Positions 1,700 through 19,178 of a stretch of 20,235 nt of DNA are shown in pieces. The number at the start of each line of letters is the position of its first letter. Positions within the stretch are counted from its first letter, which is position 1. Source of the stretch: a virus; IMG/VR virus record IMGVR_UViG_3300020433_001020, positions 1 through 20,235 of that record. One strand, given 5' to 3'. Both the position numbers and the translations under genes were made by a program. The notes below the pieces were generated by a model that did not search any database, was not told the DNA's origin, and worked only from the letters and a program-made list of their open reading frames with translations.

Positions 1700-4600
1700 T
1701 CAAAGTCCAAATACTCTAATCGCACCAGTGGATCTAAGACCCCTATGTGATGTTGGATCATAATTTTTTCTTTGAATAGTTGGGAAAGTTGTTAATCCAG
1801 TATTTACAATTAATCCAGTAACACCTATTGAGATAGGATCACTTGAACGCTCTCCATTATATAATCTACCCCAACTTAATCGACCCATTGATATAGAAGT
1901 TGTTATTCCAGCAGGATAATGGAAACCCTCAGTTGTAATACCAGTAAGGTTAGATCCATTTTCAACATTACAAATAATTTCACCATCCTTATCAATATTT
2001 GTAATTGATGCTACCTGATAAACATTATCTAAGAAGGTTGTTCCAATACCAACTATAGATGAATTATGACCACCAACTGATGTTACCCCATGACCAACTG
2101 ATGTATCCCGTATAAAGACTGGATATCCAACGAGAAGACTTGATGCATTTTTTGTTGCTCTAAAGAAGAATTTAATCGCTGGTTGACTACCATTAGTTGT
2201 TGGTGCAATACCTGTTATGATACCAGTAAATCCTTCTACATTTGCTAATGATGTTACTTTATCAGTCTGGAATTGAGGTAATTCTATAAGAACCTCTGGT
2301 GGATTAGAGTGAGTATAACCAAATCCAACAGCAGTCAATGTTGTATCAGTTACTGCACCATTTGTTATGGTAGTTGTTGCAAACGCTGTAGATCCTATAC
2401 CAGTTGTAGTTCCAGAACCAATTGGTGGACGAATTGAAATACTTGGTGCTGATAAGTATCCAGAGCCAGCATTTGTTATATCGATTGATATAGTTCCAGC
2501 AGCGGAAACAACTGCAGTCGCTGAAGCTCCAACATTAATTTTTCCTGATGTGATTAGAGCATCAACTTCAAATGATGATAAACCATAAACATCATCTTCG
2601 TAAATAAATGACTCAACCTCGTCAACAAATATACTATTTGCACTATTTGTTCCAGAAACTATTGATAGGTCTCCGATTATTTTTGCAGTTGGGTAAATTT
2701 GTGGTTCAATTGATGGTCTAGATTTATCAATTACTTGACCATTTACAATTAAATCAACTTTTTGTTTAGTCCATCTAACTGGTTTTTCATTAACTTCATC
2801 GACACCTATTCCAGTGTAGATATTTGTCTCAACTAAATCTGCACCCAATATCTCTTTAACAACTCTTTCACCTGTCTGAGATGTAGTAATACCTATAGGA
2901 CTTTTTGAAATTTTTAATTCATCACCAATTTTAACTGTTTCTTGAATGTCAACAATATCAACATCTACTCCATCTTGACCTTTATAGAAGAATATGTCAA
3001 CTTTATCATGATCATTCGCACCTGGTGATGTTTCACCTGTAGGTGCTTCTTCAAACGTAAATGTAGTTCCACCCTCAAATGTGTATGATTGTCCTGGTTT
3101 TTGAAGAACTCCATTGACAAATATCAATAAAACAGCATCTAGATCAATTAGTTGAGATTGTGAATTTGTAGAATCTTTCTCAAAACTAATTAATTGTCCG
3201 TTAAAGAATAATGGGAATCTGACCCTAGAACCATCCTGTAAATTTTTAATATCATCAATAAAGTCTATTTCACCAAACTGCCAAGCAGAGAACTTATCGT
3301 TAAATATTCCTAATACTTCAAGTTCAAATTCATTGATTGGTTTTGTTAAATGAGCAGCAGTAACTAATCCAACAGGTTTAAATTTATCACCAATTTTGAA
3401 TGAATGTCCTGGTCTTGCTATTTTGAAATTAGATATTTCAAATGTGGTTGAACCAATACCAACATTTGTTTTAGATGCTCCTACTTCAACGTCAATAAGT
3501 AAATTAGATCCAGTGTCTGTTGTTTGTCCGATACCTAATCTTGATACACCAACTACAGGTAAATTATCATAATTAGGTTCTGGAATAATAATTTCTGGAT
3601 TTACATAACTTGTGCCAGCAGAAACAATATTAAATGCTAATGTACCACCTACACCAACAGTAGCAGTTACATTCGCACCAGTTCCACCACCACCTCCTTG
3701 TCCAACAAAGAATGTTATCGTATTGGTTGTAGTTGCATCTACACTAGTCTGTATACCAGCAAATGGATCTTTACCACCTACACCATCAGATGCTACTCCT
3801 TTAGTCTTAGATACTTCACGAGGATAAGGATGATTTGAGAAGAAATCATCTTTAGAACATTTGAATACTAATCCACCAGTGTCAATACCAACTGTATCAC
3901 TTGTAGTAAACGTATGATTAGGTATGGTAAGTATCAAATTACCAGTATGTGAAATATATTGTGCGTCAGTTGCAGTAAATCCTTGACTTGATGCTCCTGA
4001 GAATGCTGTTTTCTTGATTGATCCAATGCCAGAACTTACAAATCTATGCTCATATGCCTGATCAGTTACACCAATCGCAACAGAACCACCACGATATCCA
4101 GATCCAAATGAGAGGTCATTATAGAATTCATATGCGTGACCACCACCTTGATAAGTATGTGGAATAGTACTCGCACCTGCTTGAACTTCAAATGTTCTTT
4201 CAGATACAATACCCACAACAAACAATGGTCTTTCGTGATCTTGGAAGATTGTCGTTGTAACTCCTACATATCCACCACCACCAATTGTCTTAACTGCAGT
4301 AGCAGTTGCTGATACAAAGGTATGAGCATAAACATCACCAGGATTAGAAGCACCGACATTAACTCGGAATGTATTTGTAGTTACATTACTTACAGTGAGG
4401 TATTGATTTGCTGCAGGGTCAGTAGCACGAGGATAACAATGAGTTGAATTATTACCATCTTTGGTGCAAGTAAAGCATATTGAACCAGTGTCAAGAATTA
4501 CCGCATCTCCATTCACAAGACCATGATTTGCAATCGTTATTGTAGAAATACCAGTTACGCCATCATAAGTTGCATTAGTAGGTTGTCCAACAACAGTCTT

Positions 4601-7600
4601 AGGACATCTAAACTCTAATCCTTTGAGTTTGACTGTGTTTGGTCTCTCTAGTCCGAAACCGTGAACAGTGTTAGTGGTGACTGTAATAATACCTGTGATA
4701 TTATCATAAGCAGCAGTTTGAATACCTAGATTAAATCCTGATGATGTGCCAATACCAACAATGCTTGTCAATCCACCAGCGTTATTTTTAAATGCTCTAA
4801 CTTTTGCTCCGTGTAATGGTGCATATCCAAGACCAGAGGTTGATCCTAGAGAAACTATTATTCCACCTCTTGGAACTTGGTTTTGATTTATATCAGATTC
4901 TGAGACTATAAAGTCACCATTAGTTGATGTTATACCAGTAAACTCAACGGTTGATATACCTGCTGTTGTATCTGCTATAAATTCATAATTATTACCTGCA
5001 TTGTTTAAAGTTTTTGGTGTTTGGAATACTCCATTTATGAAGAGAACTCCGTTACCAACTCCTATGCCTGATGAGGTATTTGCTCCACCAACTTTAAGAC
5101 TGTATGTTTTTCCTATTCCTGTAAAGTCATCTGATATATCATCAAATAACATATTAGTTGTATAATCACTTCTTAAGAAAGTTCTTCCACTAAAATCAGC
5201 TTTAACAAAAGGTAAATTTGTATCATCTCTTCTTGACCTAGTATTTCCTTTTGGAGGATCTGTAAAGTGTAAGGTGCTATCAACAATATTGATTGATCCT
5301 CTATGTAACCTAGCTTCTACACCAGCAGTATGTGTTGTTGCTGGAATTCCTAGTTGACCTCTCCTTACTTTAACTGAAGGTAATGTTGCAATACCTGCTG
5401 CAACATCTACTGCATCGTTAATTGTGCCTGTTGGAGTGCTTGAAAAACCAACTTCAGTCACAATCATAAATTCATCATTTACTTTTAATATATCAGAAGT
5501 TGTTATAGATCCTATACCACTTAAAATAAATTGTGTGAGACCAACTCCAATGTTGTTATTATGTGTGAAACCATCAAAAATTCCTAATGTATGAGATATT
5601 TTTGTAAATGTAACAGGTTGTTGAACTACACCATCTAATCCAATAATAGTTTTTGTCAATTGTTTCGTCATTGACAATTTGTGTAAATTACCAGAACCAC
5701 TACCAGTGAATGTTACTGCTGCACCTGATGAGACATACTCAGGTCGTGTATATAACTCAAATTGGTTTTCATCAATAACTTTTGCAAATACAGTGCTTGG
5801 TAATATTGTTGTTAAAATACCTGCTGTATTAGTTGTTTGACCAATAGAAACTGCAGTCGCTGCTACACCAATAAATGTCGATCCAGGTGTATATGTTAGT
5901 TGTTCGTTTGTGTTAAAGAAGTGATTTGGTATATTGAAAAGACCTGTTGTTTTTAGTAACCCCACACCATCAGCAATTGAGTTGATACCCACGGGATCAA
6001 ACTCTTTAGTGTAAATTGGAACTCCCTCATACTTTAAATCAAATGCTGTCTTGTTTGCTCTTAGTCCACTCAAACCATCGTATGTTGATAGGAATAATTT
6101 TTCTGTCACTCTTCCGTGTGTAAATTCTTCAGGAACGTTTGAAAAATCATTGTCAGTGTAGAATATTTGATTGAAAGATTGAACTTCTATTAATGAGTCA
6201 AACTCAGCATCTGGATAAAATCTTAAGTTAATATCACTACCAGATATTTCACCACCAAAAGTACCAATACCAGTAGTCGATCCTGCAGATACAAACGGAT
6301 ATTGTACTGTTAGAACATCGTCAGTGTCTCTTAAAGAGATAATTTGATGTATTGCAGATGTTTCTCCACAAGATACTCTTACAATGGATTTAACAGAACT
6401 TTCATTATCTTTGTTTATTGTATTATAAGTTATTGGACTTGCTGTGCCAGTTACATATTTTGACTCTAATCTTGCACTTCTCTCCGATCCAGAAGGTTGA
6501 CCTATTGTCAAAAATCTATGTGTTCCTATTCCAGTTGTAGTTGTTCCCAATCCTACAATGTTTGCTCTAACTTCAAGTGGATTTAATCTATCATTTTCAC
6601 ATTGCAATTTGATAAAATTATTTTCAAATCTTGCAGTTATTACACCCACTGATGAATTACTTAAACCTAATGAAGTATCAATATATGTTTGAGAAGTTGT
6701 AGTTTTTGTTCCATCAAAATCTACAATAACTTCATTGTAATTAATTTCTTTAGTAGTGCTATCTTGTACAAAAATATTTGCATAGAGACCATTAAAATCT
6801 GTATTAGGGAATTGAGCTATAGTGGTTGTGGTCACTCCACTAGTTGTACTATCTACTCCTACATTTGAACCAACCAAATCTACTTGCCCAACTGCCTGTG
6901 TTCCAATACCAATTAAATCCGAATTAAAATCTATTTTTAAAATTTTAATATCATGATCTTTTGTAAATTTTTCTGTTGGTGTAAATATAAGATTTTTTTC
7001 TCCAGATGAAGTGATTTCAGTAGAGAACTCACCTAATTCTAAAGTTGTAAAATCAGTTGTTTTTTCAAGCAAAAATGCATTATCAGTTGTGGTTAATGTT
7101 ATAATCTCTGAGAATTGAACATCAGATGTATCAGGATCAACTATTTGTATTAAATAATTTCCAAAATCCTCTGTAAGTTGTTCAATAACTGTGTTATTTT
7201 CTTGGAAACCTGTGCTTGAAAACTTATCACTTATATCATCGTGAACTAAAACTCTATTTGATTTACATCTTGTAAAGTCTGTTAACGTTCTAGTTGATAA
7301 TTCAATAAATTTTGAACTGTTTCCTCTTGTTTCATAATCTCTTACAAAATCAAAATTGTTAATTGCATCAACTCTCTGTTGTTCTTCTAAACCTAAAATA
7401 TTAAGCACATCAAGAACTATTAAATCATTTGTTATTGCAGTAGTTCCAATACCAACAGAAACTTGACTTTCGATTGAAGTATCTGCAAAATTCTTTAATC
7501 CAGCAGGGTGAACAAGACGATTTACTGGATTTACAAATTTATCCCATTCTACTGTGCTCTTAACTGTATAAGATAAATTTTGATAGTAATCATTATCAGG

Positions 7601-10600
7601 AATTACTTGATAATCTTCATTTAATTTTCCAATATCATCTAACCAACCATACTCTTGTCTGTTTGAAAAATCAGTTTTAAACTTCGCTTTATTTGAAATT
7701 AGACTTGTTACTTCAGCAGAAACATTACTAGATCTTCCTTTAATTCTATCTCCCTTTTTAAGTTCAAATTTACCATCAGTTTTTATATAATCATCTCTTA
7801 TTTCTACAACTGTTAAATCAGTTTTAACTGAATTAACCATCAGTGTTTCAAATAATTCAAACACACCCCTTGTTTGTATGGGTTCTATTACAGGATAATT
7901 TGACTTATTAATAATTGAAGCATAACCTGATTGGAATGTTTTTGCAATACCAGTATTAGTTGTTAAACCTGCTAAATTAAATTTAAGTATTGCTTGTGCA
8001 CCTGCAATATAATCAGTAATTTTAAAGAATTGATAGTTGTAATTTTCTGAGTTAAATCCATCACCATCAACAGTGGTATTTGTAGATATACCCCCTTGAG
8101 TTGCACCAACACCAATTTCTCCAATTCTTTGTATTCCTTCAACAAATATTTCATCTCCTATCGCAAATGGTTGTGGATCAACAAATCCATTCATAGGTGT
8201 TTCTAAGAAACAAGTAACTAATCCAGATGAACTTGATTGTACGGAGTTTATTCCAATTCCATTTGAATTGTTAATGGCAATAATTTGATGATTTAAGGAA
8301 TCTAAACCAGTTACAGGTGCAGTAATTTTGACATCAGATATTGTTTGGTTAGGTGCAATAGGTTGCAATGAGGAATCATCAGCAACTACGTTTCTAACGG
8401 GATTAAAAACAATTAAATTTGGTGCATTTATGTAATTATTACCACCACTTATGATTCTTACATTTTCAATAATATCAAGATTATCAATATTTACAACTGG
8501 TGATATAAATGCCTCTGGACTTAATGTTTTATCCGATGAATACTCATATCCTATATCTACAATTCTTACATCATTAATTCTACCTATGGATGTTGATACT
8601 GCAACTATATTTGCATTTTTACCATTTGCACTAGTAATTGTTTTAAATTTAGGTAGTTTTTTGTAGTTAAAACCAGGTGAAATTATTTTAAAATCTTTAA
8701 TTGCACCTTGAACATTTTTTGATCTTGTGCTATACTCTAATTTTTCACAATCTGTATCCAAATATGTTGTAAATTCTGGAACTAGAGGTGAAATTTTAAA
8801 CGTTTCATTTGTAACATCAAATATTTTATATTCACCATTATAAACACTATCAATAAATCTTATCTCTGCATAATTTTCAACATCAGTATCAGATGTGCTA
8901 ATATATCCACCTTTAGATAAACCATAGTATAATCTATCAGGTGTATTTTCTGAATATTGAATAGAAAGTTGAGCACCTATTGGATCAGCATTATTTGTAC
9001 CAATACCAATTGTTCCAATTCCGATTACATTAAAAGTTGTTGTATCTTGTGAACTTAAATATTCATTACTTAAATTCTTATCATAAAAAAGTTTAAAATC
9101 AAAGTTTAATAAAGTTGTGCTTGATAATCCAAAAGTTAATTTGGAATTTTTTACGACATCAATTCTAGGATTTATTAAAGATAGTGACTGATTAGCACCT
9201 CCAGTATTTGCTGCAATCGATACGATCTTGACTGGGGTTATATTTAAATCAGTTTTTGTTTCTGCAAGTTGAAAATATCTATCGCTAATTTTATTAATAT
9301 AATAATCTCCTGTTGATAAACCAGTAGCTCCTCCGTCATAAAATACTTTATCACCAGTTTCAAAACCATGATCACTTATATCAATTCTATTTGTCTCAAC
9401 ATCCGATGCTGAAAATGTAATCGGATTAATTAATAACTTTTCATACTCAGAATTATAATTAACAGAAATTGGTGCTGTTGTGCCTATACCAACTGATAAG
9501 TTGGGTACCACATTCATCTTGATAATATCACTCTCTTGAAGATTATGAGTTGTTGTATTTGCAGCTGAAACATTAGTTAAAACTGTAGTTGTTACTTTAT
9601 CAATATCTCCAGTTACTTGTTGATGGTTAGATGAAAAATAATATAGTCCTGATGAGATACCAGAGTTTGATCCTTTTGAATAGAAGAATAAACCTTCACT
9701 TGTGCTCCCTATACCAACTTTTGTAGTAAGTATGCCAACATAATCTTCACCTTTGTTTATGATATAAACATCAAGTGAATTTTGTCCAACATGAGGTACT
9801 TTAAATTCAGCAACATTAGGTGTTCTACCTACATCAAATCTATTTGCACCGTTATTTTTAAATAAAGTAACTTTTTGACCAGTTTCAAATGGATGATTTG
9901 GTAAGTGTATTGTTCTAGTAGGTATTGATAAATCTTGAACTATTTCTCCAACAATATATTTGACACTAGTTGCACTTCCTGGTGTTGTGCCAACACCGAC
10001 TGATTGAGGTCCATTAAAGTAAACTAAATCATTTGTTTTAGACTCAAATTTACTAGTTTTTACAGGAATATTAATTTGATTATTCAATACATCAATTTTT
10101 GATCCCAAAGTATGAGCAATACCAACTGATCCTGCCTCATTTCTCTGTACTCTAATAACTTTTCTTACATTATAAACATTTAATACTCTTACAATTTCAG
10201 ATCCAACTCTTAAAGATCCACCTATTGAAACTGTATTAGGGATATCTGTAACGTAAATATCTTCAATAACTCCCAAAGCATTTCCAACTGCCATAGTTTT
10301 TGCCAAACCTATGGTATCAGTTGAAATTCCAACTTTAAATGATCCCGTTAAATTAACTATACTCGTACTCAATCCAGAAACTGATATAGAGGTTTGATCA
10401 TTTAATTCATAAAAAGGAAGAACATTTGCAGTAACATTATTATTATCTTTCCATGTAAATACCGCATCTTCAAATTTTTCTAAAACTGTATCTATTCTTG
10501 AAACACCAATACCAACGATTTCATCAACTTTAGCACTAAATCCAGATCCATTAGTATCTAAATTATCAAAAACAGTTAAATCACCAACTTTATAACCTTC

Positions 10601-13600
10601 TCCACCATCTAAAACATTTACGTTATCAATATCACCCTTTGTAACAGACTCAATTTTTGTGATTTGTCTTATTGTTTCATTTGACTCGATAATAAAATCA
10701 TTATCACCAAATTCTTCATCAACAAGATATGGTAATGTATTTCTCAATAAATTAGAATTATTAAAATCAAAACTATGATCTAAAATAAGATTATCATTTA
10801 TTAAAGGAGATCTATAAGTTTTTCCTAAGAAGTATGGATACTTACCCTCTAATTTTCCAGTCGCTGATGATATTCCTACAGTTGCAAAATATGCATATAT
10901 TCCATTTGGAAACTCAGGTGTTTTACAAAATCTTCCATTGTGTTTGTCTAAGTCACCTGACCCATCACATATGAAATCATTTATGAAAAATCCCTCTTTA
11001 AAACCATTAGGTCTATTTTTAACTTTAGATATATCAAGCACAAATGAGGAAGATAATATTTTTAATTCAGAATTTATATTATCTGGATCAGAGTAACCAA
11101 ATGGACCATAGATTGGATTTCCATCATATGCCCAACCAATAATTGGTGAATGAGCAGTTATTTCTTTAAAATCATCATTTTCTTTAACCGTGAAACTACT
11201 CTCTAAAGTCTTAGCTACTTTTTGTGAATATCCAAGAACACTAAAACCAAATGAATTTTTTCTAGATACTAAATTAAAGTCTCCAAATCTTTCTACCCTA
11301 TTTAAATTTAAACTTCTAACTCTTGCATCAAGAACTCCATTAGATCCTCTTGGCACTACATTGATTTCTGTAGTTGATGCATCATAACCTATACCAGAAA
11401 ATATAACGATAGCATCAATTATCTGCCCATTTTCAACTACAGGTCTCACAATTGCTCCTGATCCTGTTCCAGTATCTTTAACTTCTAAATCGGGTGTAGA
11501 GAAGTAATTCTCTCCTTTACCTACAACACTTGCACTGATAACCTTTCCATTTACAATAATTGGTTTTATCACTCCATTCGTACCTGTTAAAATAGACACA
11601 TCTGGTTTTACTTGATGATTTAAAATTGTTGATCCATAATTAGTTCCATTTTCATAAAGATAACTATCAATTATTTCACCTTTTACGATAGGAGTTAAAT
11701 TGAAAGATCCAGTAACTGTTGATCCAAAAGATACTTCAATATTAACTTTAATTTCTGGATATTGAAATACCTGATGTCCTGTTCCTGTTGAACTTAAATT
11801 AACATATTTTTCTCTATCATAATCTACTGTAGATGTGCCACCAATACCTGCATTTGCAAGTTTAAATGTATTATTATCAATTTTTTTAACAAGATAAGAT
11901 GTCGTTGTGCTTAATCCTTGAATTTGATTATCAGCAGAATATTCTATTATTTCACCACTTGAAAAACCGTGATTAACAAAATTAATTGTATCAAAAGATG
12001 TAGAAATACCTGATGGTTCAACTCTAAGTTTACGATTTGTATAACCTGATCCCTCCTCTAAAACTTTAACCGATATAAGGGTTGTTCTATTTTCAGTTCT
12101 AAAACGATGAATACCACTAGCTCCAGTGTCTGTAGAGAGACCAACTGTATTAATACCAGCTATACCTGCTAGAGCGTCTTCTTTCTTATTAAATATCCTA
12201 ACTGTTGTTGGATTTACAACTCTTACAAAATATGGATCACCATCTGACAATGTACCTGTGATGATATTGTTTATATCATACGCAGAACCTATACCTATAG
12301 GTGGATTACTATTTGAACCGTAATAAACCAACTGACCATTCTCTAAATTATGTTCAGTTTTAAACGTGATCGTTTCATCGTTGATATCAATACCACCATT
12401 AAAAAATATATCTCTACTATCAAATTCTATAAATCTATTTCTAATACCAACCACAGGTTGTAAAACACATCCCGAACCATTACCTCCTGTTATGGAGATA
12501 TTTTTTACAGACGCAATATCAAAATTTTGTGGATCAACTAAAATTTCTTTAACACTACCTTTCACAACAGGTTGAACTAATGCTCTTGTTCCAGATGATT
12601 TTTCAACACTTATTGAAGGTGGATTGATAACATCATAATTTCTACCACCATTTAATACATCTACCGACTCTAAATTTCCATAATAAATGATATCATCAGA
12701 TATCGGTGATCTAATTTGAACACCATCTCTCAATATTCCAATATCATTGATAGGAGTTTCATTTTTTGAAGATGATGATAAGTTTTGTGATAGAGGAATT
12801 CTTCTTAAAATTTTATCAGATTGTAATTTTCTATCTGCGTGTGGTTGTAAAATAAAAGTATGATCTTCAGTTGCATGTTTAATAGTTATTTGTGATCCAA
12901 TTGAAATGACAGATGTAGTTGAACCAGTGAATGTAACCAATCCAGTATTAGTGTCAAAATCTGTAATAGTTGCATTAGTTGGTATACCTGTGCCTAATAT
13001 TAAATCATTTACAACTACATTATCAAGATTATTTAAAATTACTGTTGATATACCAACCACAGTTGATACACCTGTTACAACCTTGGTACTTTTTGTTTCA
13101 CCAAGTTGCACGGTGCTTGCTGTCCCAATTTGACTAAGTGATTGGTATAACGCTATTTTTGATATGTTAGCACCTGCAGGAGGGATTATAGGGTCTACAT
13201 AATAAGTTCTACCAGACTCTAAACCAACTATAACATTTGTTTTAGGAGAATAGATAATAGCATCTCCTTGTATAAATTTAATATTTTGATTAGATGGTGG
13301 TGAGAATTGAATAAAATTGAATTTATCTGTTAGTATATTTTTACCGTCTAAACTAATACCACTAGAAATTTCTTTTATTGTATCAATTGTAATATCATAA
13401 TTTGGTAGTGAATTAGAAGCAACATATCCATCAACTTCACCATCACTATAAACATTTAATACATCTGATATTAATACATCATTTCCTTGCTCTATTTCAA
13501 CTCCACTACTTGATGCAGTTTGAATTACTCTTCTTATATCATATAATTGATTAGAGATTGTAGTAAAACCAACAACATTATCAACTGTGATTTGATTTTT

Positions 13601-15109
13601 ATTATTGTCTATGCTACTTACAGTTCCAGTGCCTTCAATAACCTGTTCGTTTCTTCTTAATATATTAAATGTATCTCCTACCTTTAAATTTGATTTGTCA
13701 ATAGGTGCTCTAAAAGTATATGTTGTTCCTTCTATATCAACTTGAATTCTTGAGGATGTATTATATTTCCAAGAATTAGCAAAAATTTCTTTATAAGTTG
13801 AATTTTGATTTTTAATTTTTTCACCTACATTTTTAACAAAAATATTTTCTCCCTCATTTGCAAGACTAATATCAGATACAGGTATCAATTCAGAGAGAAC
13901 TCCTGTAATTCTTAGATCAATTCTTTTAGATAAATCACCATTTTCATATCCAAAAATCGTTTCATTTGAACGAATATCATCAGCGGTATTAATCTTAACC
14001 CCAACACCTGTACATCCGAAAAATTGATTTATTGTTTTAGATGTATAATCAATGCTATTTTGCCCACTAATAATAGTTCCTGTTGCTCCAAATCCAACTG
14101 TTGAGTCAACTGATATGACTTCACTATTAATTGCAACATCAGTTAGAACTTTTGTTTTACCTGGTATTGTAAAAACACCTTCAATTAAATCACGATCATT
14201 AAATCCAACAAATAATGAAATTTTGTAATATGTTTTTTGATCTCTTTTTAAAATTTCAACTTCAGATACTGATGCATTAGTTGATGTATCTGTGGATTTA
14301 AATATAGTCTGCCCAACTAAGTTTTGTGGATCTCCTGTAGATGAAATTAAATCTGCAACAATAACTTCTCTACGAATAAATTCAGCATCTGAAGGTTTTA
14401 TAAGATTTCCTTCAAGATCTAAAATTGTAGACTCAACACCATATAATACTTTGAATAATATTCTTACAGACTCTTCAATACCTTTTGATTGATAAAAAGA
14501 ACGTGCAAATTTTACAAAGTTTCCAACATCTAAATTTGCAGCGAAATCATTATCCTCTAAACCAGGTAAAAATGTTCTTTTAAGTTTTTTATAGAATTCT
14601 TGTAAAAATAAAACTGATAAATTGGTGATTGTGCTACCAGTATTATGATTATTTGCAACGGTATCCTCAAAAACTAAACTCTCACGATTAATTTCTAGAA
14701 GAGATGAGGATATACCTACATTGTAACCAGTTATGCCACTAAAACCACGAATACATCCTGTAAAGGATGTAGATGTAATTCCAGTATAAGATATTATTTC
14801 ATCATTTATTTTTAGAAGACCATATTCCGATGGAAAACCCTTTGTGCTTGGAACTTCAATTATGGTGTCAGTGGTAGAAATATCAGATGATAAACTTGTA
14901 GTGCCAGTAATAACTTCAGGCACTAAATTATCTGATTTTAAATATTGATCAAAGTTACCTATAAGATCACTAGGACCACCTTGAAACTCTTGTGAAATAT
15001 AATATTGTTTGAAAAACTCAGCAGCATTTGGAAAATCAGCAACCACAAATTCAGGTAACTGGTTTTCAATAATAGTATTGACTTTTATTCTTTTGTCAAT
15101 TTGAGACAT
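1700..15109 (-). CDS. Giant virion structural protein with gp7-like N-terminal region
   Basis: This uninterrupted 4469-codon gene occupies the T4 gene 7 position, between genes 6 and 8. Residues ~1-330 resemble the C-terminal part of T4 gp7 as remembered: a block near 195-225 (SKGIEESVRILFKVLYGVE, T4 TKGIEASYKFLFKVLYNEE) and LVGQTI near 260. A second gp7-like block (YYQNLSYTVKS, W, LVHPAG) lies near 2505-2545, so a very long insertion seems to split the gp7 region. The rest is mostly beta-rich repeated modules: HG-x3-GD (about eight copies from ~913 to ~3726), 'KINDEI...RG' (at least four), 'NGVxQxP' (~3153, ~3352, ~4005), glycine-rich GSG/GY modules and many VGIG-T tracts. A YHYH-like domain lies at ~1320-1413 (GWAYDGNPIYGPFGY, then LDKHNGRF, then PNGIYAYFA). 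No signal peptide or membrane span is evident. The ATG has a good AGGA ribosome site 8 nt upstream and follows the gene 6 stop by 3 nt. The virion role is firm; calling it gp7 is likely but needs a profile search. Confidence 0.85.
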   Translation of the reverse strand: MSQIDKRIKVNTIIENQLPEFVVADFPNAAEFFKQYYISQEFQGGPSDLIGNFDQYLKSDNLVPEVITGTTSLSSDISTTDTIIEVPSTKGFPSEYGLLKINDEIISYTGITSTSFTGCIRGFSGITGYNVGISSSLLEINRESLVFEDTVANNHNTGSTITNLSVLFLQEFYKKLKRTFLPGLEDNDFAANLDVGNFVKFARSFYQSKGIEESVRILFKVLYGVESTILDLEGNLIKPSDAEFIRREVIVADLISSTGDPQNLVGQTIFKSTDTSTNASVSEVEILKRDQKTYYKISLFVGFNDRDLIEGVFTIPGKTKVLTDVAINSEVISVDSTVGFGATGTIISGQNSIDYTSKTINQFFGCTGVGVKINTADDIRSNETIFGYENGDLSKRIDLRITGVLSELIPVSDISLANEGENIFVKNVGEKIKNQNSTYKEIFANSWKYNTSSRIQVDIEGTTYTFRAPIDKSNLKVGDTFNILRRNEQVIEGTGTVSSIDNNKNQITVDNVVGFTTISNQLYDIRRVIQTASSSGVEIEQGNDVLISDVLNVYSDGEVDGYVASNSLPNYDITIDTIKEISSGISLDGKNILTDKFNFIQFSPPSNQNIKFIQGDAIIYSPKTNVIVGLESGRTYYVDPIIPPAGANISKIALYQSLSQIGTASTVQLGETKSTKVVTGVSTVVGISTVILNNLDNVVVNDLILGTGIPTNATITDFDTNTGLVTFTGSTTSVISIGSQITIKHATEDHTFILQPHADRKLQSDKILRRIPLSQNLSSSSKNETPINDIGILRDGVQIRSPISDDIIYYGNLESVDVLNGGRNYDVINPPSISVEKSSGTRALVQPVVKGSVKEILVDPQNFDIASVKNISITGGNGSGCVLQPVVGIRNRFIEFDSRDIFFNGGIDINDETITFKTEHNLENGQLVYYGSNSNPPIGIGSAYDINNIITGTLSDGDPYFVRVVNPTTVRIFNKKEDALAGIAGINTVGLSTDTGASGIHRFRTENRTTLISVKVLEEGSGYTNRKLRVEPSGISTSFDTINFVNHGFSSGEIIEYSADNQIQGLSTTTSYLVKKIDNNTFKLANAGIGGTSTVDYDREKYVNLSSTGTGHQVFQYPEIKVNIEVSFGSTVTGSFNLTPIVKGEIIDSYLYENGTNYGSTILNHQVKPDVSILTGTNGVIKPIIVNGKVISASVVGKGENYFSTPDLEVKDTGTGSGAIVRPVVENGQIIDAIVIFSGIGYDASTTEINVVPRGSNGVLDARVRSLNLNRVERFGDFNLVSRKNSFGFSVLGYSQKVAKTLESSFTVKENDDFKEITAHSPIIGWAYDGNPIYGPFGYSDPDNINSELKILSSSFVLDISKVKNRPNGFKEGFFINDFICDGSGDLDKHNGRFCKTPEFPNGIYAYFATVGISSATGKLEGKYPYFLGKTYRSPLINDNLILDHSFDFNNSNLLRNTLPYLVDEEFGDNDFIIESNETIRQITKIESVTKGDIDNVNVLDGGEGYKVGDLTVFDNLDTNGSGFSAKVDEIVGIGVSRIDTVLEKFEDAVFTWKDNNNVTANVLPFYELNDQTSISVSGLSTSIVNLTGSFKVGISTDTIGLAKTMAVGNALGVIEDIYVTDIPNTVSIGGSLRVGSEIVRVLNVYNVRKVIRVQRNEAGSVGIAHTLGSKIDVLNNQINIPVKTSKFESKTNDLVYFNGPQSVGVGTTPGSATSVKYIVGEIVQDLSIPTRTIHLPNHPFETGQKVTLFKNNGANRFDVGRTPNVAEFKVPHVGQNSLDVYIINKGEDYVGILTTKVGIGSTSEGLFFYSKGSNSGISSGLYYFSSNHQQVTGDIDKVTTTVLTNVSAANTTTHNLQESDIIKMNVVPNLSVGIGTTAPISVNYNSEYEKLLINPITFSASDVETNRIDISDHGFETGDKVFYDGGATGLSTGDYYINKISDRYFQLAETKTDLNITPVKIVSIAANTGGANQSLSLINPRIDVVKNSKLTFGLSSTTLLNFDFKLFYDKNLSNEYLSSQDTTTFNVIGIGTIGIGTNNADPIGAQLSIQYSENTPDRLYYGLSKGGYISTSDTDVENYAEIRFIDSVYNGEYKIFDVTNETFKISPLVPEFTTYLDTDCEKLEYSTRSKNVQGAIKDFKIISPGFNYKKLPKFKTITSANGKNANIVAVSTSIGRINDVRIVDIGYEYSSDKTLSPEAFISPVVNIDNLDIIENVRIISGGNNYINAPNLIVFNPVRNVVADDSSLQPIAPNQTISDVKITAPVTGLDSLNHQIIAINNSNGIGINSVQSSSSGLVTCFLETPMNGFVDPQPFAIGDEIFVEGIQRIGEIGVGATQGGISTNTTVDGDGFNSENYNYQFFKITDYIAGAQAILKFNLAGLTTNTGIAKTFQSGYASIINKSNYPVIEPIQTRGVFELFETLMVNSVKTDLTVVEIRDDYIKTDGKFELKKGDRIKGRSSNVSAEVTSLISNKAKFKTDFSNRQEYGWLDDIGKLNEDYQVIPDNDYYQNLSYTVKSTVEWDKFVNPVNRLVHPAGLKNFADTSIESQVSVGIGTTAITNDLIVLDVLNILGLEEQQRVDAINNFDFVRDYETRGNSSKFIELSTRTLTDFTRCKSNRVLVHDDISDKFSSTGFQENNTVIEQLTEDFGNYLIQIVDPDTSDVQFSEIITLTTTDNAFLLEKTTDFTTLELGEFSTEITSSGEKNLIFTPTEKFTKDHDIKILKIDFNSDLIGIGTQAVGQVDLVGSNVGVDSTTSGVTTTTIAQFPNTDFNGLYANIFVQDSTTKEINYNEVIVDFDGTKTTTSQTYIDTSLGLSNSSVGVITARFENNFIKLQCENDRLNPLEVRANIVGLGTTTTGIGTHRFLTIGQPSGSERSARLESKYVTGTASPITYNTINKDNESSVKSIVRVSCGETSAIHQIISLRDTDDVLTVQYPFVSAGSTTGIGTFGGEISGSDINLRFYPDAEFDSLIEVQSFNQIFYTDNDFSNVPEEFTHGRVTEKLFLSTYDGLSGLRANKTAFDLKYEGVPIYTKEFDPVGINSIADGVGLLKTTGLFNIPNHFFNTNEQLTYTPGSTFIGVAATAVSIGQTTNTAGILTTILPSTVFAKVIDENQFELYTRPEYVSSGAAVTFTGSGSGNLHKLSMTKQLTKTIIGLDGVVQQPVTFTKISHTLGIFDGFTHNNNIGVGLTQFILSGIGSITTSDILKVNDEFMIVTEVGFSSTPTGTINDAVDVAAGIATLPSVKVRRGQLGIPATTHTAGVEARLHRGSINIVDSTLHFTDPPKGNTRSRRDDTNLPFVKADFSGRTFLRSDYTTNMLFDDISDDFTGIGKTYSLKVGGANTSSGIGVGNGVLFINGVFQTPKTLNNAGNNYEFIADTTAGISTVEFTGITSTNGDFIVSESDINQNQVPRGGIIVSLGSTSGLGYAPLHGAKVRAFKNNAGGLTSIVGIGTSSGFNLGIQTAAYDNITGIITVTTNTVHGFGLERPNTVKLKGLEFRCPKTVVGQPTNATYDGVTGISTITIANHGLVNGDAVILDTGSICFTCTKDGNNSTHCYPRATDPAANQYLTVSNVTTNTFRVNVGASNPGDVYAHTFVSATATAVKTIGGGGYVGVTTTIFQDHERPLFVVGIVSERTFEVQAGASTIPHTYQGGGHAYEFYNDLSFGSGYRGGSVAIGVTDQAYEHRFVSSGIGSIKKTAFSGASSQGFTATDAQYISHTGNLILTIPNHTFTTSDTVGIDTGGLVFKCSKDDFFSNHPYPREVSKTKGVASDGVGGKDPFAGIQTSVDATTTNTITFFVGQGGGGGTGANVTATVGVGGTLAFNIVSAGTSYVNPEIIIPEPNYDNLPVVGVSRLGIGQTTDTGSNLLIDVEVGASKTNVGIGSTTFEISNFKIARPGHSFKIGDKFKPVGLVTAAHLTKPINEFELEVLGIFNDKFSAWQFGEIDFIDDIKNLQDGSRVRFPLFFNGQLISFEKDSTNSQSQLIDLDAVLLIFVNGVLQKPGQSYTFEGGTTFTFEEAPTGETSPGANDHDKVDIFFYKGQDGVDVDIVDIQETVKIGDELKISKSPIGITTSQTGERVVKEILGADLVETNIYTGIGVDEVNEKPVRWTKQKVDLIVNGQVIDKSRPSIEPQIYPTAKIIGDLSIVSGTNSANSIFVDEVESFIYEDDVYGLSSFEVDALITSGKINVGASATAVVSAAGTISIDITNAGSGYLSAPSISIRPPIGSGTTTGIGSTAFATTTITNGAVTDTTLTAVGFGYTHSNPPEVLIELPQFQTDKVTSLANVEGFTGIITGIAPTTNGSQPAIKFFFRATKNASSLLVGYPVFIRDTSVGHGVTSVGGHNSSIVGIGTTFLDNVYQVASITNIDKDGEIICNVENGSNLTGITTEGFHYPAGITTSISMGRLSWGRLYNGERSSDPISIGVTGLIVNTGLTTFPTIQRKNYDPTSHRGLRSTGAIRVFGL

Positions 15110-15112
15110 AAA

Positions 15113-17059
15113 TTATTTCCTCTCTAGATCTCCATTAGAGTAACTAGAGGTGTAATAATCTCTAGTAAATACGACACCTGAAACATCTTCACCTGAAGCG
15201 ATTACATCCTTAAACATATTTATTGTGCTTTTTGAAACGTCAAAACTTAGATATAAATCTTTCAACCCAACGACATCGTTTGACTCTGGGAATGCTTGAA
15301 CTTCAATAATATTATTCTCTGCTGCTGTAGATGTAATGTTGATTGTATTTAAAATTATTTCACCCTTTTTATAATCAACGATACCTGCGTCTTTGATTAA
15401 AACTTGTTGATTATCTTTTTGATTTTTGAAAACTACACTCAAAGTTCCTTTCATCGATCCATCAAGATTACCAGCAGCATCTTTATTTGGAACATCAGTG
15501 AGAAAAGCAGTTTCATTTGATCCAGAAACTGTAAATCCAGTGCTCTTTATATTATAACCAGCGGGATTTATATTAAAACGATTACCAAAACATAATTCGT
15601 ACTGTGCAAATTGATTTAAGAGTGCCTTTAAATCTCTTCTTATAATTACCTTCGTAATATTTGATGTAATACCATTATCAACACGATCAATTAAGGTATT
15701 CAATTTACTATATTTAAATCTTCCACCGAATTTATTGATTTCAATATTTCGAGAATAATTATCTAATGAAGATATGATAGTTGTTCTTAAATTTGATGCT
15801 GAAGCGACCTGTGAGGGGTTATAATAGATCGTAGAGTTTAATTCTACATATAGTACCTTAAGATCAACTATTTGAGAATTAATACCAGCGATAGCGTAGT
15901 TTTTTAACTTATTTTTAATTTGTGCTTTGTCAAAATCTGATACATATGTGCCACCTTTTGGTTTAATACTAATTTGAACTTGTCCAAATTTTGGTGGATC
16001 TAATTCTTCCCCTCCAACGACTGCAACCGACTCAGTTTTTGGAAAAATGTCTTGAATTATCGCCTCATAATCCCTTGGTGTAACTGCCCTATATTGTGCT
16101 GAGTAAAGTCTTGGAGCAAAATACTTAATAGAAGACACATCTTCAACTTCTGCACCGTTAGAGGCACTTGTGACGGTAGTTATGGTGATGTTATCAGTTG
16201 GAATGAATAATGTTCCATCACTCTTTGTAAAAGATCCTTGAAAACTAAAATTAGAAGGACCATTTCCATCTTCACCTTCAGTTACAAGATATTTTGCTGT
16301 AATAATTGAATTATTTTCAAGTTTTTTACCAAAAAGACCATCACCAAATAATATTTCATATTTTTCATCTTGAACTTCTTGTGCAAGGTAAATTTCTGAA
16401 TTTTTATTGATATTTAATATATTATCAACCATTGAATACTTTCTACCAAGTCCAACATCAGTTGTTCCTTTAACAAATACTCTCAATGTTGAACTATCAA
16501 TGTTTGGACTGTCAATTATAAACCTTTGATCTTGAGATGTATCAACTTTATATACTCTCTGAAGCAGTGTTCCCTCATAAACAGTAATTGGATCATCAAA
16601 TTGAGCAAAAGACACTCCATTTACATCACGAACACGAGATGATGTAATCTCATCAGGTATTGAGAACCGAAAAGTAGTGTTTTCTGTATTTCCAACACAA
16701 ACAAGACCTGATCGAAGAGTTAAAAATCTTGGTGTGCTGGAATTTGTAACTCCTAAATTAATATCAGATATTTCTATTGATGCTAACGCAGCAGTTTTTG
16801 AACGTGGTACGTATCCGATGTTACGTGCAAGTGAAACAACATTTTCACGTATAGTCGCTGAGTCTAAGAATGATTCATTTGCAAGCAAGTTTGCATTAAA
16901 TGCATTAATATAGGTATTATAAGCAAGAGTATCAATTAAAACAGAGAAGTTTGAACCCTCAAAATCAAAATCAGTAAAATTTGAGTTTGCACGAAGAAAA
17001 TCTTTGATTTGTACTTTGATTTGATCAAAGTCTAAATTTGTAAACTGTGTAAAGGGCAT
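15113..17059 (-). CDS. 6: Baseplate wedge protein gp6
   Basis: This 648-residue protein matches T4 gp6 (660 residues), the wedge protein that forms the continuous inner ring of the baseplate with gp25, gp53 and gp7. The N-terminus carries the family's blocks: DFEGS at 32-36, LAYNT at 45-49, ESF at 62-64, a TA-x2-R-like step, and GYVPRSKTAA at 82-91. All have close counterparts in T4 gp6 as remembered. A middle block near residues 315-370 (SAQYRAVTPRDYEAI, then GGEELDPPKFGQVQI) is typical of gp6 and baseplate J-like proteins. The ATG lies 1 nt after the gene 25 stop codon, so the two are probably translationally coupled. The gene is full length with no sign of damage. Confidence 0.95.
   Translation of the reverse strand: MPFTQFTNLDFDQIKVQIKDFLRANSNFTDFDFEGSNFSVLIDTLAYNTYINAFNANLLANESFLDSATIRENVVSLARNIGYVPRSKTAALASIEISDINLGVTNSSTPRFLTLRSGLVCVGNTENTTFRFSIPDEITSSRVRDVNGVSFAQFDDPITVYEGTLLQRVYKVDTSQDQRFIIDSPNIDSSTLRVFVKGTTDVGLGRKYSMVDNILNINKNSEIYLAQEVQDEKYEILFGDGLFGKKLENNSIITAKYLVTEGEDGNGPSNFSFQGSFTKSDGTLFIPTDNITITTVTSASNGAEVEDVSSIKYFAPRLYSAQYRAVTPRDYEAIIQDIFPKTESVAVVGGEELDPPKFGQVQISIKPKGGTYVSDFDKAQIKNKLKNYAIAGINSQIVDLKVLYVELNSTIYYNPSQVASASNLRTTIISSLDNYSRNIEINKFGGRFKYSKLNTLIDRVDNGITSNITKVIIRRDLKALLNQFAQYELCFGNRFNINPAGYNIKSTGFTVSGSNETAFLTDVPNKDAAGNLDGSMKGTLSVVFKNQKDNQQVLIKDAGIVDYKKGEIILNTINITSTAAENNIIEVQAFPESNDVVGLKDLYLSFDVSKSTINMFKDVIASGEDVSGVVFTRDYYTSSYSNGDLERK
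15118..15125 (-). promoter_or_regulatory. Ribosome binding site of the giant structural gene
   Basis: The minus strand reads AGAGAGGA, ending 8 nt before the ATG at 15109. It is one of the clearest Shine-Dalgarno sequences in the window and fixes the start of the 4469-codon gene. It overlaps the last codons of gene 6, as expected for a tightly packed operon. Confidence 0.75.
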
Positions 17060-17490: not shown

Positions 17491-17841
17491 CTATCTTGCA
17501 TAATCTTTCATCACATAATCATCACTATCGAAGTAATTAAGCACCCACCACGCAACAGAACGTGGATTTTTTGTTCCACAAGTGAAAATATCGAACGCAA
17601 CACACTGTTTTTCTGGCCAAGTATGGCAAGAAAGGTGACTTTCACCTAAAGTTAGAGTACAAGTTACTCCATAAGGGTCAAATTGATGAGTATATGTATT
17701 TAAAATCTGTAAATTTTCACTTTTACAAGCATTAACGCATACTTGTTCAATTTTTTCTGTGTCATTTAACTTATCAAAGGGCACATTATACACTTCAACG
17801 AGTAAATGTTGACCCATATGAGCATTTTTTACGTGTTTCAT
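17491..17841 (-). CDS. speD: S-adenosylmethionine decarboxylase, prokaryotic class
   Basis: The product decarboxylates S-adenosylmethionine to give the aminopropyl donor for spermidine synthesis. The 116-residue length fits the short bacterial and archaeal enzymes. The self-processing site is clear: GESHLSCHTWPE places the cleavage between Glu67 and Ser68, with Ser68 becoming the pyruvoyl cofactor. His73 and Cys88 (in FDIFTCG) stand 5 and 20 residues after the serine, the same spacing as the processing histidine and catalytic cysteine of the Thermotoga enzyme. All key residues are present, so activity is likely. speD is a recognised auxiliary metabolic gene of marine T4-like cyanophages; polyamines may help DNA packaging or host metabolism during infection. 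The ATG directly follows the stop of the 297-residue gene (TAAATG), which suggests coupling. The late promoter of gene 25 starts just after its stop. Confidence 0.95.
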   Translation of the reverse strand: MKHVKNAHMGQHLLVEVYNVPFDKLNDTEKIEQVCVNACKSENLQILNTYTHQFDPYGVTCTLTLGESHLSCHTWPEKQCVAFDIFTCGTKNPRSVAWWVLNYFDSDDYVMKDYAR

Positions 17842-18737: not shown

Positions 18738-19178
18738 TTAATCTTGATTAAGTTCCCAATCTCTTTCATCGGGTCGATAGTATGATGTGAGTTCTTCACC
18801 CTCTTGAATATCACGAATTGCAAAGAACTCGTGAGTTTTTCGATCCCAAAATAAATTTGGAGTATGTGAATGATTGATATAATATTCAGTGTACAACATA
18901 TTCAGAGGAACGTCGAGTATGTATGACTCCGTTTCTGGATTATACATACACATTCTTTCAATAAACTTCTCAATCTTAGAACCAACAAGTTTTTCAACCT
19001 TTTTCCAATGAACTTCGTGATTTGGATAATGGTTCCAGTATTTTTTATCATAAAGGATTTCATCTTGTTTAATAAATCTCAAAGCAAAAACACCAACTCC
19101 TGCTCCTTCAATTAAACTTGGTTGTAAGCAGGTTTTGATGTCTTGTATCGATGAAATCATATCATCGTATGTGTACAT
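18738..19178 (-). CDS. SET-domain protein, putative protein lysine methyltransferase
   Basis: The 146-residue protein shows the ordered signatures of a SET domain. These are GAGVGVFA at residues 25-32 (the usual G-x-G strand that binds S-adenosylmethionine), NHSHTPN at 102-108 (family NHSC-x-PN) and IRDIQEGEELTSYY at 121-134 (family I-x-GEEL-x2-Y). Tyr134 aligns with the catalytic tyrosine. No post-SET cysteine cluster is seen, and the protein is close to a minimal SET domain, with an insert at ~45-85. The family transfers a methyl group to lysine side chains; the target here is unknown. The start codon overlaps the stop of the preceding 47-residue basic gene (TAATG), so the two are probably translationally coupled. 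The next gene follows after 2 nt. Fold assignment is firm; activity is inferred from retained motifs. Confidence 0.88.
   Translation of the reverse strand: MYTYDDMISSIQDIKTCLQPSLIEGAGVGVFALRFIKQDEILYDKKYWNHYPNHEVHWKKVEKLVGSKIEKFIERMCMYNPETESYILDVPLNMLYTEYYINHSHTPNLFWDRKTHEFFAIRDIQEGEELTSYYRPDERDWELNQD

Follow-up and report, generated by a model that had tools for sequence, protein, structure and literature searches.

Which part of a baseplate wedge protein remains recognizable when the gene found in its place encodes a polypeptide of 4,469 amino acids? This question is raised by a virus record of 20,235 bases (IMGVR_UViG_3300020433_001020), itself a genome fragment, the whole of which is referred to here as the window. 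Pfam and PHROG matches place four wedge genes on its minus strand in the order gp25, gp6, giant open reading frame (ORF) and gp8:

1700..15109, minus strand: giant gp7-type ORF of 4,469 residues, one open frame; phrog_2885 ("baseplate wedge subunit")
15113..17059, minus strand: gp6 baseplate wedge; phrog_219 and PF21379
17061..17462, minus strand: gp25 baseplate wedge; PF04965
62..1657, minus strand: gp8 baseplate wedge with two matches to the GSGY module; PF09215 and phrog_438

The order gp6, gp7, gp8 is identical in phage T4, and the giant ORF, flanked by gp6 and gp8, thus occupies the T4 gene 7 slot to which a preliminary description of this DNA had assigned it. It matches phrog_2885 across most of the 4,179 positions of this profile. 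The same-slot gene of the Prochlorococcus phage P-SSM2 (AY939844; 5,195 residues) belongs to the same giant family along its length and is annotated as gp7, "baseplate wedge initiator", while the copy in syn9 carries the label "putative fiber". By name, a giant gp7 is therefore already present in the databases, in P-SSM2, in other cyanophages and in a PHROG of its own.

T4 gp7 matches all three Pfam models of its type (Gp7_helical, Gp7_5th, Gp7_6th), and the window matches none of them at E ≤ 1. The Baseplate_wedge model PF23786, whose cut-off of 27 bits is passed by the slot proteins of Stenotrophomonas phage IME-SM1, Sinorhizobium phage phiM12 and Pelagibacter phage Mosig, reaches 16.3 bits with the whole giant protein and 21.1 bits with its residues 1-353. 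A phmmer comparison of the whole giant protein with the PDB sequences yielded nothing at E ≤ 10.

Two separated blocks of the gp7 core

The giant protein contains two sequence blocks that lie close together in the C-terminal part of T4 gp7. A first block with the consensus F/Y..SKG.E.S...LFK.LYG is followed, far downstream in the same ORF, by a second one with the consensus YY..SY.V.S...W....HPAG. In the window, the motifs start at residues 208 (SKGIEESVRILFKVLYGVE), 264 (LVGQTI), 2508 (YYQNLSYTVKS) and 2532 (LVHPAG); their T4 counterparts start at residues 737 (TKGIEASYKFLFKVLYNEE), 781 (LVGQTI), 861 (YYVMKIKS) and 882 (FVHPVG). The distance from LVGQTI to the YY motif is hence 2,244 residues in the window and 80 residues in T4, an excess of 2,164 residues that bears out the insertion of about 2,200 residues originally suspected. 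The core is in fact interrupted at three places (residues 68-163, 315-383 and approximately 415-2490), and about 1,900 further residues follow the second block:

14909..15094, minus strand: core block A1, residues 6-67, helical start of the gp7 core; profile A1 and low-confidence AlphaFold2 helices
14621..14908, minus strand: interruption 1, residues 68-163, with module I copy 1 (78-125); module profile and fold match
14168..14620, minus strand: core block A2, residues 164-314 (SKGIEESVRILFKVLYG, LVGQTI); phrog_964 match and deep profile
13961..14167, minus strand: interruption 2, residues 315-383, module I copy 2; module profile and structure model
13868..13960, minus strand: end of the gp7 domain V equivalent, residues 384-414; model aligned to T4 gp7
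7640..13867, minus strand: main insertion, residues ~415-2490 (~2,080 residues), with an approximate far boundary; profiles, model and motif positions
10871..11158, minus strand: YHYH-family domain within the insertion, residues 1318-1413; PF14240, 84.9 bits
7430..7639, minus strand: core block B, residues ~2491-2560 (YYQNLSYTVKS ... LVHPAG); deep profiles
1703..7429, minus strand: C-terminal extension, residues 2561-4469, with three GSGY and two HGF module matches; module profiles

The homology of both blocks to T4 gp7 was assessed with deep A2 and B profiles built from relatives on viral contigs and from named phages, with T4-type sequences excluded, against 276 ORFs (at least 100 residues, six frames) of T4-type contigs, 29 of which are gp7. 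Either profile recovered 28 of these 29 gp7 ORFs at a domain E-value below 0.01, although the 29 are related to each other and do not amount to as many independent tests; T4 gp7 itself was matched at residues 731-759 by A2 (3.9e-7) and at residues 865-906 by B (2.9e-4). None of the 247 other ORFs was matched at E < 0.01 (best values 0.53 for A2 and 0.44 for B), and the best E-values were 2.1 and 6.1 with reversed ORFs, and 0.0032 and 0.032 among 5,520 shuffled sequences, for A2 and B, respectively. Residues 202-276 of the window protein additionally match the T4 gp7 family phrog_964 at positions 730-792 (E 7.2e-5), and the phiM12 slot protein matches the same profile at 643-832 (E 8.9e-7).

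The HMM-HMM alignment recommended in the preliminary description gave a divided result. With hhalign, block A aligns with the T4 gp7 family at a probability of 95.4 (E 5.8e-9), and block B alone fails (probability 0.1), so that both segments match gp7, block B doing so through the deep HMMER profile only. The family of the pelagiphages likewise failed against T4 gp7 in hhalign (probability 0.4); that of IME-SM1 succeeded (93.7, E 2e-7), but its block B was not placed on T4 residues 865-906. A first, broad block A profile run against the T4-type ORFs with default HMMER filters had not matched T4. Matches were obtained once this profile had been divided into A1 and A2 and deepened, which can be attributed to the interruption that lies between the two parts. 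Profile A1 matches 16 of 17 slot proteins, T4 being the sole exception.

Insertion point, block order and conservation among relatives

Slot genes encode between 503 and 7,312 residues, and the spacing of their core blocks forms a graded series. Among the 17 proteins compared, the gap between A2 and B amounts to 106 residues in T4 (a value measured between partial matches that is, if anything, too large), 163 in IME-SM1, 261 in Mosig, 734 in phiM12, 965 in S-CRM01, 1,482 in S-PM2, 1,491 in S-B68, 2,038-2,135 in the seven proteins of the group to which the window (2,135) belongs, and 2,600-2,691 in syn9, S-SZBM1 and P-SSM4. The additional sequence enters the core at a common point. Interruption 1 varies as well and comprises about 600 residues in syn9, P-SSM4 and S-SZBM1. 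The compact slot proteins of IME-SM1 (503 amino acids), Mosig (874 amino acids) and phiM12 (1,007 amino acids) possess both blocks in the same order and in the same slot, but with a gap of only 163-734 residues and only two to three GSGY module matches each; those of IME-SM1 and Mosig are annotated as hypothetical proteins and that of phiM12 as a baseplate wedge subunit. PF23786 carries the two blocks directly adjoining one another (positions 158-228 and 232-281 of 284), and its two pieces lie 8.5 kb apart in P-SSM4. Since the blocks are contiguous in this model, the contiguous form is likely the older one and the insertion derived.

Block A precedes block B in all 215 viral-contig ORFs that contain both, a count in which some contigs appear twice; 121 of them are bounded by stop codons on both sides, and 18 ORFs of more than 4,000 residues are stop-bounded at both ends. 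The uniform block order and these 18 closed giants rule out an assembly fault as the cause of the giant ORF. ORFs with a single block (79 with A only, 34 with B only) are not counter-examples either, since 74 and 30 of them, respectively, run off the end of their contig. Eight of the nine closed ones are accounted for by four loci in which a stop codon or frameshift divides an ORF into two halves (L037, L066, L144 and L230; L037 and L230 represent one contig), and the ninth (L371) ends 36 bases short of its contig end. A scan with the S-CRM01 gp7 added three loci, one of which is S-CRM01 itself. Phages of Stenotrophomonas, Methylophilales, Pseudomonas, Caulobacter and Ochrobactrum also contain matches to block B; the family consequently reaches well beyond the cyanophages.

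A separate gp7 homologue elsewhere in the genome would speak against this assignment. As the window record is a fragment, such a gene was sought in complete relatives. The T4-gp7 profile phrog_964 matches the slot ORF and no other ORF in nine of the 11 complete genomes searched, among them those of six cyanophages with giant ORFs, and finds no match in the genomes of S-PM2 and Mosig; a control with 14 unrelated genomes gave one match. PF23786 likewise matches no ORFs other than those of the slot, in nine of the 11 complete phages, with none in ACG-2014f and T4. In the six complete cyanophage relatives, phrog_964 thus leads to the giant ORF and to no second gp7. Sequence identity between the window protein and that of P-SSM2 amounts to 71-81% in the core pieces and to 50-57% in the insertion; with five more distant relatives this contrast is smaller, and the YHYH stretch equals or exceeds the core in most of them. 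In each of the six relatives, 72-98% of the insertion can be aligned, which marks it as an old, inherited part of the protein rather than a recent arrival.

With regard to the T4-type loci themselves, a single 121 kb contig (IMGVR_UViG_2974739009_000001) carries two of them (L006 and L007), both 80% identical to T4 gp7; this double locus may be a repeat, a duplication or an assembly fault.

Structure models and module content of the insertion

Residues 1-1000 of the window protein were modelled with AlphaFold2 on the basis of 57 relatives (mean pLDDT 54.8), as was the whole chain of the 503-residue IMG/VR copy of the IME-SM1 gene (L130; 30 relatives, mean pLDDT 60.8). T4 gp7 is the sole Foldseek match of the window model in the PDB at E ≤ 0.001 (2.8e-4, probability 0.75). 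In a VIA-align superposition, model residues 243-414 align with T4 gp7 763-853 over 89 residues (Z 9.3, rmsd 3.3), a Z-score level of 9.3-10.5 that five other chains also reach on this model via its barrel modules. The matched stretch spans 172 residues in the window and 91 in T4 because a β-barrel module (residues ~315-383) lies inside it; this module itself matches a tail-tube protein and ATP-synthase barrels. Interruption 2 is accordingly predicted by the model to sit inside the equivalent of T4 domain V. Model residues 62-166 match chain 9in6_M of a Vibrio phage VP1 capsid entry (Z 10.5).

All three matches of the L130 model at E ≤ 0.001 are gp7 (5iv5, 1.0e-5; 9f4a, 1.8e-5; 5hx2, 4.0e-4). 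Its residues 1-440 align with gp7 641-898 at Z 9.4, but the rmsd of 18.7 and query TM-scores of 0.18-0.20 reveal a string of domain matches rather than a whole-chain fit. Both models are of low confidence in the N-terminal helices and around block B, so that a gp7-like fold is predicted for the domain V equivalent only, the remaining core being modelled at low confidence. T4 gp7 (5iv5 and 5hx2) shares with the window the two core blocks in the same order and the fold of the domain V equivalent. It lacks the long C-terminal extension, which in the window comprises about 1,900 residues after block B; conversely, no counterpart of the 640-residue N-terminal part of T4 gp7 was found in the giant protein. 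Baseplate chains of phage P1, a diffocin, a Streptomyces and an Anabaena contractile injection system, and phage Mu match the L130 model across both blocks (for Mu, 9ki1_O residues 193-276 match residues 93-435 over 63 residues), with Z-scores of 4.7-6.9, a level also reached by many unrelated entries. In these chains, the blocks are not separated by an insertion. These chains probably represent the gpI/TssG-type subunit; TssG, together with two TssF, is described as playing the equivalent role in type VI secretion (PMC6300606).

The preliminary description had portrayed the inserted sequence as repeated, fibre-like modules. That it is repetitive is correct, as three module types recur; the fibre-like character holds only in part, since the commonest module resembles domain I of the tail sheath protein gp18 in a compact relative. 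Counted with iterated profiles at E ≤ 1e-3 (a few matches overlap), the window giant contains two copies of module I, seven of a module with the pattern HGF...GLS...YYV, and 11 of the GSGY module (module III), with eight of the 11 GSGY and five of the seven HGF matches residing in the main insertion. The number of GSGY matches is two in IME-SM1 and in Mosig, three in phiM12, four in S-CRM01, seven in S-PM2 and 21 each in syn9 and P-SSM4; T4 gp7 is not matched by this profile. Residues 259-333 of L130 match gp18 domain I (chain residues 99-186) over 74 residues (Z 8.4, rmsd 2.6), and in the T4 genome phrog_26741 matches the reading frame of gp18 (E 1.2e-5). The GSGY profile of the window family matches gp18 weakly (E 0.028 at 102-157, and 0.034), at a level also attained by shuffled sequences. 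Among 14 structural proteins of T4, no match at E < 0.05 was obtained with the profiles of modules I and II, and module III matched gp18 only; 1,400 shuffled sequences yielded 9, 13 and 13 matches below this threshold for modules I, II and III, respectively.

The YHYH domain of the insertion scores 84.9 bits against a PF14240 cut-off of 25 (profile positions 91-184 of 193). Fusions of YHYH domains to proteins of the tail or baseplate are frequent according to PMC7824862, in which the domain is predicted to be a metal-dependent hydrolase. The name-giving motif reads YAYF in the window and thus lacks its histidines, both of which are also absent, by eye, in ten relatives in which the motif is readable; judging from these residues, the window copy is probably not a metal-dependent hydrolase.

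Several observations extend beyond the insertion. The gp8 gene of the window encodes 531 residues (334 in T4) with two GSGY matches at residues 190-279. A cysteine-bearing module recurs, by eye, in the C-terminal part of the giant (CFTCTKDGNNSTHCYPRATDP, VFKCSKDDFFSNHPYPREVSKT), and a similar stretch is present in P-SSM4. The profiles phrog_3465 ("head closure Hc2"), phrog_4406, phrog_701 and phrog_19630 ("head and packaging") match gp7 proteins of the slot, core blocks included, as for instance at L115:14882-17506; their labels look wrong, perhaps as a result of the common GSGY module.

Significance of the split core for marine T4-like phages

We conclude that the giant ORF is the gp7 of this phage, with a core split by the main insertion, and assign this reading a probability of roughly 0.8. 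The gene slot, the profile matches, the compact relatives, the fold matches and the finding of no second gp7 in complete relatives all sustain the initial proposal that the gp7 core was kept even though it is split. The core would consist of residues ~6-67, 164-314, 384-414 and 2491-2560, matching T4 gp7 ~641-898. From the end of domain V to the YY...HPAG block (~853 to 861), T4 spends fewer than ten residues; at this position, the giant chain would exit the core, pass through approximately 2,080 residues of mostly β-modules, re-enter to complete the core, and finally depart once more into a C-terminal part of some 1,900 residues. Blocks A and B would accordingly fold together. Each T4 tail contains six copies of gp7, a monomer that supports gp6 on a platform formed together with gp8 and that has domains in contact with gp10 and gp9 (PMC3004832). 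The conserved core would be expected to keep the docking of monomeric gp7 on two gp6 chains, and six giant copies would then be present in each baseplate. The 640-residue N-terminal part of T4 gp7 has presumably been replaced by the elaborations in the insertion and at the C-terminus. Without a counterpart of that part, peripheral contacts must be made otherwise, and the insertion and the C-terminal part are the obvious candidates. An external appendage, as envisaged in the preliminary description, is a plausible role for the insertion, which may project outward as an adaptor or as a host-contact arm coupled to the wedge.

The core may well be split and the insertion nonetheless stay within the baseplate, as structural filler, for example as a second layer or a ring that holds other wedge proteins, with no arm outside. 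We consider this a quite possible arrangement, if not one that we would favor: two-layered baseplates have been predicted for these phages in PMC7029224 (where the role is given to the protein VrlC), the most frequent module looks, in a compact relative, like a domain of the tail sheath and not like a receptor-binding tip, and the histidines that give the YHYH domain its name are missing. The wide differences in length and module number among the groups speak against filler, and YHYH, HGF and β-barrel modules would be typical of surface-exposed or receptor-facing parts. A quite different proposal would have a fibre-type giant take over the slot and capture gp7-like pieces, with VrlC as the true wedge protein. 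The statement in the pelagimyophage study that gp7 is absent and the "putative fiber" label of the syn9 copy fit this scenario, which is improbable in view of the ordered blocks in 215 of 215 ORFs, their better conservation relative to the insertion in the comparison with P-SSM2, the compact 503- and 874-residue versions in the same slot, and a T4-gp7 profile that matches only the slot ORF.

Two further explanations would dispense with an insertion in the mature protein or with the homology altogether. An intein would leave precisely two separated halves of one core, and the insert might be removed by splicing of this kind or by proteolysis, with the core re-joined in the virion. Yet a Pfam scan of the insertion found no intein model at E ≤ 0.5, the gap widens step by step among the relatives, starting at about 160 residues, GSGY modules like those of the insertion are also present in gp8 and in the C-terminal part, and the S-SZBM1 relative is listed by virion proteomics at 724 kDa with an overall coverage of 13.5% (PMC9146016). 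Excision of the insert is therefore very improbable. That the resemblance to T4 gp7 is a chance match of short motifs is hardly credible: block B does match T4 with a modest E-value (2.9e-4), and some of the profile-profile alignments were unsuccessful, but the specificity controls and the conservation of the slot argue against chance, as do the fold searches with two different proteins, both of which rank gp7 first.

The split gp7 core bears directly on the published record. According to the pelagimyophage study (PMC7029224), pelagiphages and cyanophages lack T4 gp7, for which VrlC appears to substitute, and a comparison of 26 genomes (PMC3037559) lists gp7 among the core genes of non-cyanophages; these statements, as worded there, are at odds with the evidence presented here. 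In the virion proteome of S-SZBM1, PMC9146016 reports a baseplate wedge initiator of 6,619 residues (724 kDa) detected with 71 peptides at 13.5% coverage, and it describes long tail fibres as absent in this phage. The S-SZBM1 giant gene contains both core blocks. Titles and abstract openings in the literature covered, which includes a minority of the subscription journals, mention no split or interrupted gp7, and no baseplate structure of a marine T4-like cyanophage stood out in a single search for one. The Anabaena phage A-1(L) was set aside, as its wedge naming in PMC10966104 is not T4-like. New are hence the split core, the common insertion point and the evidence against the published absence of gp7.

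Whether the abundant T4-like phages of the oceans do without a wedge protein that is central to the baseplate of T4 is the wider issue, and the data argue against such a lack. A core of a contractile machine that accepts insertions at one place, with a gap ranging from about 160 to about 2,700 residues, points to a loop able to carry large cargo. We suggest, tentatively, that the T4-like phages infecting marine picocyanobacteria and SAR11 have retained gp7 throughout, but opened its core at one fixed loop and built there an arm of sheath-domain-like modules that wires host contact into the wedge; as a whole, this scenario is possible rather than probable. If it were true, the arm would take over the job of the separate pins and fibre connectors of T4, and a single polypeptide could link receptor binding to the triggering of the baseplate. 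From the split core follows a clear prediction that can be tested on the baseplate structure of marine T4-like cyanophages.

Two further genes were noted in the vicinity of the wedge genes of the window. A gene for S-adenosylmethionine decarboxylase (SAM decarboxylase; PF02675, E 4.5e-32) adjoins gp25 at positions 17491-17841 (minus strand), and a small SET-domain protein (PF00856, E 2.1e-12) is encoded upstream of the wedge genes at positions 18738-19178 (minus strand).
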